A DNA stretch of 64,000 nucleotides, from NCBI RefSeq assembly GCF_025136295.1, contig NZ_CP062788.1:124001-188000 (forward strand), given 5' to 3'. This stretch comes from Aestuariispira ectoiniformans. GTDB taxonomy: Bacteria > Pseudomonadota > Alphaproteobacteria > UBA8366 > Aestuariispiraceae. Each line of letters opens with the position of its first letter. Position 1 is the stretch's first letter. Below the pieces are notes generated by a model that saw nothing but the letters and a program-made list of their open reading frames with translations, was not told the origin of the DNA and did not search any database. Positions 1-4,215 of this stretch are shown piece by piece. Both the position numbers and the translations under genes were made by a program.

Positions 1-49
1 CTTTGCTCTTGGTCGGTTTTTTCTTCTTTTGAGGGGCGGATTTAGTCAT
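1..49 (-). CDS. 5' end of an unidentified basic protein (truncated by window edge)
   Basis: A minus-strand ATG at 49 opens a frame that reads MTKSAPQKKKKPTKSK and runs off the left edge. The upstream sequence reads GGTGAC just before the ATG, a weak ribosome site. The lysine-rich start resembles the tails of nucleic-acid-binding proteins, but sixteen residues are too few to name a family. It is divergent from irr and shares the 157-bp intergenic region with it. Confidence 0.4.
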   Translation of the reverse strand, partial: MTKSAPQKKKKPTKSK

Positions 50-126
50 GTCACCATTCTTATGCCGATTCGCACGCAGAGGAATGCGGGATTTACCCTT
101 TGCCTTTTGCCTGAAAAAGCCCTAAA

Positions 127-143
127 ATTATAGCCATTCTAAA
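127..143 (+). promoter_or_regulatory. Degenerate Irr box upstream of irr
   Basis: The sequence ATTATAG-CCA-TTCTAAA keeps the right half of the Irr/ICE consensus (TTTAGAA-N3-TTCTAAA) perfectly and matches the left half at four of seven positions. It lies 63 bp before the irr start, which would suit autoregulation. Assignment rests on resemblance only. Confidence 0.35.
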
Positions 144-206
144 AAGAGCCCTTAATGGGTAAAATGGTTGGGTTTAACAAGGTAACGGGCTTCCCATATA
201 AAGCTC

Positions 207-623
207 ATGATTAAAGAACGCCCTTTCGCAAAAGTTTTGGAACAATTGTCTGCAGTCGGCCTTCGCCCGACGCGACAGCGGTTGGCTCTGGCGAAGCTGT
301 TGTTTGACAACGGTCATCACCATGTCACCGCAGAACAACTGTATTCAACCGCCTGCGCCAACAATGTAAAAGTCTCCTTGGCGACCGTCTATAATACCTT
401 GCACCAGTTTAAGGAAGTGGGGTTGTTGCGTGAGGTTGTTGTTGAAGCCGGTCGGTCCTATTTCGACACAAATCTGAGCGACCATCATCATTTCTTCCGG
501 GAAAGCACCGGCGAATTGATCGACATCCCCAAAGACGATATCGCGGTCTCCAATCTGCCTCAGCCGCCACAGGGAACCAAAGTCGACAGCGTCAATGTGA
601 TTATTCGCATACGCGATCAATAA
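207..623 (+). CDS. irr: Irr-like Fur-family iron response regulator
   Basis: This 138-residue protein has the Fur winged-helix fold. The DNA-reading helix lies around SLATVYNTLHQF (57-68) and is followed by the dimerisation half. The SDHHHFF stretch (His93-95) is the histidine cluster typical of alphaproteobacterial Irr. There are no paired CxxC motifs for structural zinc, which argues against Fur, Zur or PerR. In this class Irr senses haem/iron status and represses or activates iron-linked genes. It sits directly upstream of a rubrerythrin gene whose promoter carries an Irr box, so the neighbour is a likely target. There is no N-terminal haem-regulatory GCPWHD motif, so haem sensing would rely on the His cluster. 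Confidence 0.88.
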   Translation: MIKERPFAKVLEQLSAVGLRPTRQRLALAKLLFDNGHHHVTAEQLYSTACANNVKVSLATVYNTLHQFKEVGLLREVVVEAGRSYFDTNLSDHHHFFRESTGELIDIPKDDIAVSNLPQPPQGTKVDSVNVIIRIRDQ

Positions 624-664
624 TCATTATCATTACCCTTTAAAAACATGGTTTTTACAGACTG

Positions 665-681
665 TTTGGAATTATTCTAAA
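665..681 (+). promoter_or_regulatory. Irr box (ICE-type operator) of the rubrerythrin operon
   Basis: TTTGGAA-TTA-TTCTAAA matches the published Irr consensus TTTAGAA-N3-TTCTAAA at 13 of 14 specified positions. It ends 2 bp before the -35 hexamer at 684, so bound Irr would touch RNA polymerase. The regulator gene ends only 42 bp upstream. Confidence 0.75.
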
Positions 682-683
682 CA

Positions 684-712
684 TTGACAGCGATTGCATT
701 CTGGCTCATAGT
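684..712 (+). promoter_or_regulatory. Sigma-70 type promoter of the rubrerythrin operon
   Basis: TTGACA (684-689), a 17-bp spacer and CATAGT (707-712) form a good vegetative promoter. Transcription would start near 719 and give an untranslated leader of about 85 nt before the rubrerythrin ATG at 804. Confidence 0.65.
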
Positions 713-803
713 ATCAGTCTGGGTTTCCGGCCGCTTTGGCCCAATAAGATAACCAATGGGCAGCAAACTGCCCGCCATTCTTGGACTTATCAGGAGAGAA
801 GCC

Positions 804-1223
804 ATGTCGCTCAAGGGCACAAAAACCGAAGACAATCTGAAAGAAGCATTTGCCGGTGAAAGCCAGGCAAACCGCCGCTACCTGTATTTTGCACAGAAGG
901 CCGACATCGAGGGCTATAACGACGTTTCCGCCGTATTCCGCTCTACTGCGGAAGGTGAAACCGGCCACGCCCACGGCCATCTGGAATTTCTGGAAGAAGT
1001 TGGTGACCCCGCCACGGGCGAGCCGATCGGTAACACTGCCGCCAATCTGAAAGCGGCGATCGCGGGTGAAACCCACGAATACACCGATATGTATCCGGGC
1101 ATGGCCCGTACTGCCCGTGAAGAGGGCTTCGATGAAATCGCCGACTGGTTCGAAACGCTGGCCAAGGCCGAAAAAAGCCACGCCGGGCGTTTCCAGAAGG
1201 CTTTGGACTCGTTGGGCAGCTAA
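804..1223 (+). CDS. Rubrerythrin (ferritin-like diiron domain only)
   Basis: The 139-residue product is a four-helix diiron protein of the rubrerythrin family. It probably acts as a cytoplasmic peroxide reductase or iron-handling protein. Likely iron ligands are Glu19, Glu52-x2-His55, Glu89/Glu92 and Glu123-x2-His126. Classical rubrerythrins end in a rubredoxin domain with two CxxC pairs. Here the protein stops after the ferritin-like domain, so electrons must come from a separate partner. I chose the ATG at 804 because AGGAGA precedes it at the right distance and the family alignment starts there. An in-frame ATG at 756 has no such site. It is first gene of an operon with the Fe-S protein and DUF3501, behind an Irr box. 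Confidence 0.88.
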
Positions 1224-1239
1224 CGCGTTAAAGATGCCA

Positions 1240-1267
1240 GGCGGGGCCATGTGCCCCGCCTTTTCTT
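1240..1267 (+). terminator. Stem-loop after rubrerythrin (terminator or attenuator)
   Basis: GGCGGGGC (1240-1247) pairs with GCCCCGCC (1253-1260) across a 5-nt loop and is followed by TTTTCTT. It looks like an intrinsic terminator. Partial read-through would give more rubrerythrin than downstream proteins. A separate promoter for the next gene at 1339 is not obvious. Confidence 0.75.
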
Positions 1268-1338
1268 AAAGCCCACCACCGGAATTGACGGCCTGACAAG
1301 CTGTTTACCACATCCCCTTAGAGAGGTGAGGTAGCGCT

Positions 1339-2688
1339 ATGCGTGAAGGTAGCCTGGACGCACCGATCCGCCATCCCATCAATTGGACGGATCCCGAATT
1401 TTACGATGCGGAAAAACTGGACGAGGAATTACGCCGCGTCTTTGACATCTGTCACGGATGCAGACGCTGCTTTAACCTGTGCGATTCCTTCCCCCGCCTC
1501 TTCGATCTGATCGACGAGTCAGAAAGCGGGGAGCTGGATACGGTCGATTCAAAGGATTTCAAACCCGTCGCGGACGCCTGCACCTTGTGTGACATGTGCT
1601 TCATGACGAAATGTCCCTATGTGCCGCCGCATGAGTTCAACCTGGATTTTCCGCATCTCATGCTCCGCTATCGCGCTGTCGAATTGAAGAACGGTCAGCA
1701 GTCCGCCATGGACCGGCAACTGACGGAGACCGACCGCAACGGCAAGCTGGCCGGAATGGTCGCCCCCATTTCGAACTGGGCCTCAGACCGGCATAATTCG
1801 ATGACGCGCCCGGTGATGGAGAAGGTAACCGGTATCCATAAGGAGGCCGAACTTCCCAAATTCCATGCCAGTACCTTCGTCAAACGCGCCAGCAAGACAA
1901 AGCCGGAGGTGAACGCACAAGCCCCCGCCTATGGCCGCAAGGCGGTCCTTTATGCCACCTGCTTTGCCAATTACAACAACCCGACCATTGGAACGGCAGC
2001 CCAGGCGGTTCTGGCCCATAATGGCGTCGAAACGGAAGTGGTCTATCCCGAATGCTGCGGCATGCCACAGCTTGAGCACGGCGATCTTGCCCGCGTGTCG
2101 GACAAGGCAAAAACGGTTTCCAAGGCCCTCAAACCCTATATCGACCAGGGTTATGACGTTATCGCACTGGTGCCGAGCTGTACCCTGATGCTGAAATTTG
2201 AATGGCCGCTGATCACCCCGGAGGATGAGGACGTCAAACGCCTGTCCCAGGCCACGTTCGACATCAGCGAGTATATCGTCGATATCGCCAAGAAGGATGG
2301 CCTGGCAGATGGCCTGACGCCTCTGGATGGTGGCGTATCGGTTCATCTGGCCTGCCATGCGCGGGCCCAGAATATGGGCCAGAAGGCGGCTGAACTGATG
2401 CAACTGCTGCCGGACACCGACCTGAAGGTCGTGGAGCGTTGCTCCGGCCACGGCGGTTCCTGGGGCATCATGAAGGATAATTTCGAGGTCGGCATGAAAG
2501 TCGGACGCCCGGTCTTCCGGCAAATGGCCGACGGCGGCAAACCGAAATATATTGCCAGCGAATGCCCATTGGCCGGCCTGCATATCGGACAGGGCATCGA
2601 ACGCCAGGCAAAAGAGGGCGACACGCAGCCGGAAACCGTGCCGCACCCGATCATACTAATGGCGAAGTCCTACGGCCTGACCTATTAG
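1339..2688 (+). CDS. Fe-S oxidoreductase, GlpC/HdrD-like (two 4Fe-4S and two CCG domains)
   Basis: The 449-residue protein opens with two tetracysteine clusters, C38-x2-C41-x2-C44-x3-C48 and C81-x2-C84-x2-C87-x4-C92-P. These are ferredoxin-type 4Fe-4S sites. Two cysteine-rich CCG domains follow: one contains YPECCGMPQLEHGD and the other CHARAQ...CSGHGGSWG. This is the layout of glycerol-3-phosphate dehydrogenase subunit C and heterodisulfide reductase subunit D. There are no membrane segments, so it should be cytoplasmic. Its place between a rubrerythrin lacking rubredoxin and a DUF3501 protein suggests that it passes electrons to the diiron centre. That link is inferred from context. The true substrate is unknown. 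Confidence 0.82.
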   Translation: MREGSLDAPIRHPINWTDPEFYDAEKLDEELRRVFDICHGCRRCFNLCDSFPRLFDLIDESESGELDTVDSKDFKPVADACTLCDMCFMTKCPYVPPHEFNLDFPHLMLRYRAVELKNGQQSAMDRQLTETDRNGKLAGMVAPISNWASDRHNSMTRPVMEKVTGIHKEAELPKFHASTFVKRASKTKPEVNAQAPAYGRKAVLYATCFANYNNPTIGTAAQAVLAHNGVETEVVYPECCGMPQLEHGDLARVSDKAKTVSKALKPYIDQGYDVIALVPSCTLMLKFEWPLITPEDEDVKRLSQATFDISEYIVDIAKKDGLADGLTPLDGGVSVHLACHARAQNMGQKAAELMQLLPDTDLKVVERCSGHGGSWGIMKDNFEVGMKVGRPVFRQMADGGKPKYIASECPLAGLHIGQGIERQAKEGDTQPETVPHPIILMAKSYGLTY

Positions 2689-2730
2689 GCCGCTGGACGA
2701 ATAAACAACGAAGACCCACGGAGAGTAGAC

Positions 2731-3321
2731 ATGTCTGCAGCGCGTAAGATCACCAAGGACGATATCCTGCCGCTGGACGAATACATCAAGGTTCGCAAGG
2801 ACCGTAAGGCCGCATTATTGCCGCGCAAGAAAAAGCGGCGCGCGGAAATCGGCCCGGTTGCCACCGTCTATTTCGAATCCTTCGATACCATGCTGCATCA
2901 GATTCAGGAGATGCTCTATATCGAAAAAGGCGGCGACGAACAGTTACGGGACGAACTGGCGGCCTATAACCCGCTCGTCCCCAACGGGCGCGAGCTGGTG
3001 ACGACCGTCATGTTTGAAATCGACGATGAGATCCGCCGACGCAACTTCCTGTCTCGCCTCGGCGGGGTCGAAGAGACCATGTTCATCAAATTCGGCGATG
3101 AAGAGATTTTCGGCCGTCCGGAAGAGGATGTGGACAGGACCACAGCCGACGGCAAAGCCTCCAGCGTGCAGTTCATCCATTTCCCTTTCACCGATGAACA
3201 GGCCGCAAAGTTCAGCGAACCCGGCACGCAGGTCATCGTCGGCTTCAAACATCCCGAATATGCCCATATGGCGATCATTCAGGAGGAAAGCCGCGCCGAA
3301 CTGGCCGGTGACTTTGCTTGA
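2731..3321 (+). CDS. DUF3501 family protein
   Basis: The 196-residue protein starts at an ATG preceded by GGAGAG and reads MSAARKITKDDILPLDEYIKVR. I recognise it as DUF3501, a family usually encoded beside rubrerythrin and the GlpC-like Fe-S protein. It has a basic stretch (RKKKRR, near 31-36) and a mixed, charged soluble sequence with no cysteine motif or signal peptide. Function is unknown. It lies 42 bp after the Fe-S gene, so the three genes form one transcription unit. Its consistent partners suggest an oxidative-stress or iron role. Confidence 0.8.
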   Translation: MSAARKITKDDILPLDEYIKVRKDRKAALLPRKKKRRAEIGPVATVYFESFDTMLHQIQEMLYIEKGGDEQLRDELAAYNPLVPNGRELVTTVMFEIDDEIRRRNFLSRLGGVEETMFIKFGDEEIFGRPEEDVDRTTADGKASSVQFIHFPFTDEQAAKFSEPGTQVIVGFKHPEYAHMAIIQEESRAELAGDFA

Positions 3322-3330
3322 GAATACGGC

Positions 3331-4215
3331 TCAGGCCGCAATAACGACCTTGTTGCGGCCTGCTTCCTTTGCCTTATAAAGGGCCCGGTCCGCACGGCGG
3401 AGAACATCATCAAGTGTTTCGCCTTCGGACCATTGTGCAAGGCCGATACTGACGGTCACCTGGACATTCTCCCCGTCACCGACGTCAATTGAAGCGTCTT
3501 CAATTGCCTTGTGACAACGCTTGGCAACGGCCTGCGCCTCATCAGCCGATGTTTCCGGCAGGCAGATCGCGAATTCCTCGCCCCCCAGGCGCCCGATGCT
3601 ATCGGGTTCCCGCAGCGATTCCATGCATTTCTCCGCGATGAATTTGAGGACCTCGTCACCCGCGGCGTGACCATAGCTGTCGTTGACATGTTTGAAATGA
3701 TCTACATCCAGCATGCATAGCGTCAGCGGCTGACCATAGCGTTTGCAGCGTACGACCTCCCGTTCCGCCACTTCCATGAAATACCTGCGGATGAAGACAT
3801 TGGTCAGAAAATCTATGGTGGCCATGCGGCGCAGTTCCACCGTCCGCGCCCGCAGGGTCAGCAGGCTTTGCGCCCTTGCTATGAGTTCCACCGGTTCCAG
3901 GGGTTTCGGCACGAAATCATTCGCACCAGCCTCAAACGCCTGGCGCAACACGTCCCGCTCTTCCATGGCGGTTACCATCACAATCGGGAATTCTTCCTTA
4001 CTGCGCTGTTCTCTATAGGACCGGATGACATCAAGGCCATTCATTTTGGGCATCATGTAATCAACCATCAGCAGGTCAATTTCATTGTCCATGCAATACC
4101 GAAGTCCTTCTTCGGGATCGGTAAAGATAATGGGATCCACGCCCCCAATTTTCTTGAGATATTCCGCGATCAAACGCGCAGTAATCAATGTGTCGTCAAT
4201 GACAACAACCTGCAT
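3331..4215 (-). CDS. PleD-like response regulator diguanylate cyclase (REC-GGDEF)
   Basis: Residues 1-120 form a CheY-like receiver with phospho-acceptor Asp52 and Lys104. Residues 130-294 form a GGDEF domain with an intact GGEEF signature at 211-215. The RxxD inhibitory site (Arg202-Glu-Pro-Asp205) lies five residues before it. The enzyme should therefore make cyclic di-GMP from two GTP, be switched on by phosphorylation and be inhibited by its product. Unlike Caulobacter PleD it has one receiver, not two. No kinase gene is adjacent. It ends against the DUF3501 operon, which is transcribed towards it. Confidence 0.88.
   Translation of the reverse strand: MQVVVIDDTLITARLIAEYLKKIGGVDPIIFTDPEEGLRYCMDNEIDLLMVDYMMPKMNGLDVIRSYREQRSKEEFPIVMVTAMEERDVLRQAFEAGANDFVPKPLEPVELIARAQSLLTLRARTVELRRMATIDFLTNVFIRRYFMEVAEREVVRCKRYGQPLTLCMLDVDHFKHVNDSYGHAAGDEVLKFIAEKCMESLREPDSIGRLGGEEFAICLPETSADEAQAVAKRCHKAIEDASIDVGDGENVQVTVSIGLAQWSEGETLDDVLRRADRALYKAKEAGRNKVVIAA
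3332..3362 (+). terminator. Stem-loop at the convergent junction of DUF3501 and the GGDEF gene
   Basis: CAGGCCGCAA (3332-3341) pairs with TTGCGGCCTG (3353-3362) and is followed by CTTCCTTTG. It begins 11 bp after the DUF3501 stop and lies inside the last codons of the opposing gene. It could end the operon, although the T-tract is poor. Confidence 0.45.

Follow-up and report, generated by a model that had tools for sequence, protein, structure and literature searches.

The window, a stretch of 64,000 nt comprising positions 124001–188000 of a 4.36 Mb single-contig genome, carries near its beginning a gene for a Fur-family regulator, followed on the same strand by the three genes of a rubrerythrin cluster. 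The regulator gene, irr (nt 207–623, forward strand), specifies a protein of 138 aa that was assigned to Irr/IrrA by NCBIfam models and by residue alignment. Beyond it lies the 17-bp palindrome TTTGGAATTATTCTAAA (nt 665–681; 7-3-7), found by pattern matching and kept in relatives, which agrees without a mismatch with TTTRGAA-N3-TTCYAAA, a sequence we take to be the consensus of the ICE, or Irr box; its symmetry is broken at a single pair. Two nucleotides (CA, nt 682–683) separate it from a -35 hexamer, TTGACA (nt 684–689, forward strand), and a spacer of 17 nt leads to the -10 hexamer, CATAGT (nt 707–712, forward strand). Both hexamers come from a sigma-70 scan of nt 1–3500, which returned 5 promoter-like sites compared to a shuffled mean of 1.9, and TTGACA-N17-CATAGT ranks best of these (10/12). 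The original prediction, that an Irr box abuts the rubrerythrin promoter, is borne out by this arrangement.

The rubrerythrin gene, rbr (nt 804–1223, forward strand), encodes a single-domain protein of 139 aa, of the aerobic, ferriperoxin-like type according to family and conservation. Its start is most likely nt 804, which conservation favors over the listed ORF start at nt 756. Downstream are genes for an Fe-S protein with a CCG domain (nt 1339–2688, forward strand, 449 aa; GlpC-like, the RFO of Cardenas 2016) and for a DUF3501 protein (nt 2731–3321, forward strand, 196 aa), so that the locus possesses all three components of the aerobic-type rubrerythrin module. A terminator-like hairpin (nt 1239–1261, forward strand; 9 pairs, then TTTTC) is situated between rbr and the Fe-S gene. 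The segment that holds it (nt 1230–1275) has a value of -21.5 kcal/mol (z -3.2), and terminator-like hairpins follow rbr in 14 of 95 loci versus 14 of 950 shuffles. Given this hairpin, perhaps only some of the transcripts begun before rbr continue through the genes for the Fe-S and DUF3501 proteins. The gene order of the proposed rubrerythrin/Fe-S/DUF3501 operon is therefore present, but its unity is weakened.

The identity of the gene preceding the box, also part of the original prediction, is confirmed by the NCBIfam IrrA model NF045678 (208.6 bits, cut-off 150); a second model, NF045677, gives 186.9 bits (cut-off 170), and PerR models score at most 72.9 bits against cut-offs of 180–250. The regulatory metal of PerR is held by five His/Asp ligands, H37, D85, H91, H93 and D104. 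When aligned (2FE3), these correspond to H39, D87, H93, H95 and D106 of the window Irr, residues that are present in 114, 112, 113, 113 and 113, respectively, of 114 Irr proteins. The HxH haem motif of the window Irr is H93-H94-H95, the outer two histidines each being found in 113/114 proteins. The CxxC structural zinc site is absent from the window Irr, where R98 and T101 stand in place of the two Cys residues. The N-terminal haem regulatory (CP) motif of the Bradyrhizobium type is not universal; it is absent from the window Irr and occurs in just 3 of the 114 Irr proteins as delimited, a count in which the choice of start may mask some cases (e.g. L241). By alignment, then, the residues needed for a PerR-like oxidation switch are present in Irr proteins, as is an HxH haem motif. 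In a tree Irr stands apart from Fur (99), with linked and unlinked Irr proteins mixed (11 changes), but 70 of 101 inner branches are open, so that ancestral irr-rbr linkage is at most a tentative reading of this tree. A search of plasmids with Irr gave 101 records, every one below 60% identity.

The number of matching sites is a poor guide to the significance of the box. The exact consensus occurs once in the 4.36 Mb genome, at nt 665–681, and the backwards pattern likewise has one exact match. Five sites have one mismatch and 22 have two, giving a total of 28 that is not above the 36 of the backwards-pattern control, and motif count was rejected as evidence for this reason. Within the window, one match with up to two mismatches compares to 0.34 expected, and shuffling the sequence 100 times produced one or more such matches on 28 occasions. 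Of the five single-mismatch sites, only that at sodB lies before a gene of peroxide or iron function; the other four do not (of the 27 sites with one or two mismatches, four fell outside the position filter and were left unscored for adjacent gene). Taken alone, such counts would suit a chance palindrome at nt 665–681, but its conservation and the fixed spacing between box and -35 throughout the class (described below) already refute this explanation, to which we give practically no weight. As judged from these comparisons, it is by position and conservation that the box is meaningful, not by number of sites.

The original prediction had named loss of the motif from relatives that keep the operon as its own refutation. 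Instead, the motif is kept upstream of orthologous operons in each of three samples. Among relatives, 45 of 59 genomes carry rbr, and in the best 30 loci (own included in both counts) irr is directly 5' of rbr and RFO 3' of it in 30/30, an intergenic box with up to two mismatches is present in 30/30, and TTGAC stands just behind the box in 28/30. A class-wide search of 289 genomes found rbr in 167 and irr in 178; 80 loci were taken, mostly one per family, and 65 of these have an irr-like gene within 600 bp 5' of rbr. At one of the 65 (L125) the neighbor has 31% identity and is probably another Fur-family gene. A box with up to two mismatches is present in 45/65, compared to 0.26% of mono-shuffles; the best box has no mismatch in 8 loci, one in 16, two in 21, three in 7 and at least four in 12, while one locus has too little intergenic DNA. 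For the third sample, named genome records yielded 576 confirmed matches, of which we took the 80 best; these include Pelagibius, Sneathiella, Ferruginivarius, Reyranella, Parvibaculum, Candidatus Pelagibacter ubique and numerous MAGs. Here an irr gene lies no more than 800 bp away in 60/80 loci, and 54/60 of these linked loci carry the box with up to two mismatches. In the 20 loci without linked irr, the mismatches number at least five in 15, four in 1, two in 2 and zero in 2, the exact boxes being those of L309, where irr lies 994 bp upstream, and of L311 (Ferruginivarius).

The class-wide and named samples partly overlap (e.g. G106 and L272). When their irr-linked loci are pooled, the box is found in 76/95, versus 0.56% of dinucleotide shuffles, and among distinct rbr upstream regions it is found in 132/184. 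In 117 of these 132, TTGAC/T lies no more than 12 nt behind the box, most commonly after a gap of 3 nt, compared to 5/132 for control 12-mers and 1.3% for shuffled sequence. The association of Irr with rbr thus looks both real and old, recurring across many Alphaproteobacteria. Against this, all four loci (L120–L123) in which irr adjoins a divergent rbr (60–70% identity, no RFO) lack the box. At L142 (G058) irr and an exact box are followed by a small ORF, then by a gene for a redoxin/AhpC-type peroxiredoxin, with rbr further 3'. Degenerate ICE-like sites (two mismatches) occur upstream of irr itself in 12/95 loci, versus 0.3% in shuffles, which suggests autoregulation of irr in some lineages; no ICE-like site precedes irr in the window.

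Presence of the box also tracks presence of irr in the genome. Of 97 loci, 88 were kept for this count, after removal of 8 with rbr identity below 75% and 1 with a short upstream region. Where the genome has irr, the box is found at 59/75 rbr loci, including 10/11 at which irr is not adjacent, and 16/75 show no box with up to two mismatches. Where irr is lacking, the box is found at 0/13 loci (Fisher p 6e-8, without correction for kinship); a kinship-aware pair test, with a single supported pair, had no power. The 13 irr-less genomes were so classed by the IrrA model, with Fur-level matches only in 8 (46.5–61.8 bits) and none in 5, and some are drafts in which an irr gene may have been missed. 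Among five rbr operons outside the class, a box (one mismatch) is present only in the genome with an Irr-like protein, L253 (G526). At 126 bits this protein, from outside the Alphaproteobacteria, falls under the cut-off of 150, and its genome was counted as irr-bearing. Irr-type regulators have previously been predicted in Acidithiobacilli, according to the portion of PMC2631029 used here.

The window genome holds three Fur-family genes, irr and two others (the Fur-like L016 and a third, L018), and Fur-family boxes are palindromic, so one of the other two proteins might read the box in place of Irr. This is very improbable, as the box is absent from all 13 irr-less rbr loci even though 8 of the 13 genomes show a Fur-level protein, and sphingomonad-type loci without an adjacent irr (judged at the locus only) bear a different palindrome. 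The latter is near TTGCGAAT-N-ATTCGCAA, with 1–2 mismatches, in L287, L303, L310, L313, L325 and L330, none with adjacent irr. It lies at about -120 to -150 from rbr, and several of the loci are from Sphingomonadaceae, Sphingorhabdus or Novosphingobium. Seven further loci contain the same palindrome with 1–3 mismatches, the majority of them alongside an Irr box. It is as if a different Fur-family regulator had taken the place of Irr at the TTGCGAAT-N-ATTCGCAA loci.

The genes that bear the box were examined by a gene-blind search of 385 genomes for the exact box combined with a -35 (TTTAGAANNNTTCTAAWN{2,6}TTGA). This gave 30 sites in 29 genomes, compared to 3 sites for the reversed control, and the genes behind them were rbr (18), sufB (4), katG (3), dps (1), catalase (1) and others (3; L350, L364, L369), so that 27/30 are at peroxide, iron-storage or suf genes. 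The window genome gives no such site because its box reads TTTGGAA. Identities were taken from family models for SufB (L347) and catalase (L362), and the other three sufB genes were read by eye. The four sufB sites (L345–L348), with exact box and -35, are from genomes of one small-genome family. At L356 and L358 irr is directly 5' of katG instead of rbr, with the exact box and -35 between them; at the third katG site (L365, read by eye) the -35 is directed away from katG. In the relatives' loci (own included) the box is found at 13/18 dps and 7/18 katG loci. The Dps, Fe-superoxide dismutase and KatG queries were confirmed by family models, the Dps and KatG fragment falling below NCBIfam cut-offs and above those of Pfam. 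In the window genome the rbr box is exact, the sodB site has one mismatch, and the dps site has two and is followed by TTGAAA. As a core target sodB was rejected, since the box is present in 2 of 28 assessable loci, those of the window genome and one relative only. A PerR-like core regulon of peroxide defence and iron sequestration is probable from this distribution.

Control of this rbr promoter by Irr is well supported by the comparative data. Box, promoter, gene order, conservation and co-occurrence with irr are all sequence-based, and from these we infer binding, repression and signal. The best explanation, and in our view a probable one, is that the 17-bp palindrome is the operator for the neighboring Irr protein, and that irr, box, promoter, rbr, RFO and DUF3501 form an ancient alphaproteobacterial unit against peroxide that carries its own regulator, most likely a repressor. 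Transcription of rbr should start near nt 719, judging from the promoter hexamers, which would center the box at about -46. An Irr dimer would occupy the DNA immediately 5' of the -35 and most likely impede RNA polymerase at a strong promoter. Inactivation of Irr, by haem and/or by oxidation at the His/Asp site, would then permit production of rubrerythrin, which would reduce peroxide and hold iron, and the similar boxes at dps, katG and catalase genes would make up a small regulon for peroxide and iron sequestration.

The direction of control is held less firmly than the identity of the regulator. Irr, haem-free under low iron and bound just 5' of the -35, might instead recruit RNA polymerase, raising rbr during iron starvation. 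In most loci the box is indeed upstream of the core promoter rather than over it, and a review describes Irr as activating or repressing according to box position, with direct activation common, and far commoner than for Fur or DtxR (PMC7762939, in the part used here). In P. ubique under iron limitation, rbr rises 1.57-fold and suf 1.8–2.4-fold, which counts against classical low-iron repression, as this predicts otherwise. The P. ubique locus in our set (L328, so named by species and from a different strain than the expression study) has linked irr and boxes. Repression is nonetheless favored by additional boxes at the presumed place of the spacer or -10 (L296, L309, L328 and, read by eye, the katG locus L204; few loci, and partly one lineage) together with R. 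sphaeroides data on mbfA and ccpA. The -35 is moreover near consensus in many loci, which is unusual where a promoter needs an activator. R. sphaeroides Irr binds both mbfA and ccpA (ccpA by band shift), binding is favored by Mn, and the ccpA start lies ~40 nt 3' of the box; under iron limitation, mutation of irr raises mbfA ~8-fold and ccpA 1.8-fold, while at normal iron ccpA does not differ between mutant and wild type (PMC3413700, as far as the sections drawn on here go). With peroxide, mbfA rises ~9-fold and ccpA, which has the same box geometry as the window promoter, drops ~5-fold, and the abstract of that paper infers an activator function from most of the affected genes (PMC3413700). 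On balance we consider activation at the rbr promoter the less likely reading, yet a serious alternative, and repression by Irr remains favored.

As to the signal, iron status may act at this promoter as originally predicted, alone or together with peroxide, but published data on iron versus peroxide are mixed in the sections of PMC3413700 and PMC2864753 used here. Irr could read peroxide directly, because rbr, dps, katG, catalase and suf form a set for peroxide, iron sequestration and Fe-S clusters, and because the five PerR-type ligands are kept. More tentatively, and with the balance somewhat against it, Irr may originally have been, and in many Alphaproteobacteria may still be, a local PerR-like regulator coupled to rubrerythrin, along with dps, katG, catalase and suf, that senses peroxide and iron/haem through its His/Asp site, the global iron-haem role in rhizobia being a later expansion after irr left rbr.

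Both halves of this system are known separately, namely the Irr boxes of peroxide and iron-storage genes, and the rubrerythrin-RFO-DUF3501 cluster. A link between Irr and rbr was not stated in any source found by a literature search whose scope excluded subscription papers, Rodionov 2006 (the main comparative paper) and RegPrecise, and in the main text of Cardenas 2016 (PMC5114695) 'irr' has 0 occurrences and the cluster is not linked to Irr. The link would assign a regulator to a widespread rubrerythrin-RFO-DUF3501 module and provide Irr with a probable core target beyond the rhizobia. It would also reduce the role of Irr in most Alphaproteobacteria, Pelagibacter included, to a question at one promoter, and it raises the chemical question of whether Irr senses peroxide with the ligand set of PerR.

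Among the targets of B. subtilis-type PerR regulons are dps, katG, catalase and rbr. The system described here resembles them in its targets and in all five ligand positions, but the window Irr is without the CxxC zinc site and is assigned to Irr by NCBIfam. The three genes of the window cluster are those of the aerobic-type rubrerythrin-RFO-DUF3501 cluster of Cardenas 2016 (main text, PMC5114695), and the window rbr is of the same rubredoxin-less type as Hydrogenobacter ferriperoxin, a peroxidase, as described in the part of PMC3317640 used. The closest regulatory parallels are Irr/ICE control of mbfA, ccpA and bfr in Rhodobacter, Bradyrhizobium and Agrobacterium, where the regulator family and box are the same and the targets are likewise peroxide or iron-storage genes, as far as the sections of PMC3413700 and PMC7762939 used here describe them; the R. 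sphaeroides ccpA box lies ~40 nt before the start (PMC3413700), and the window box would be similarly placed. Unlike these systems, however, the target in the window is a soluble single-domain rubrerythrin whose gene adjoins irr.
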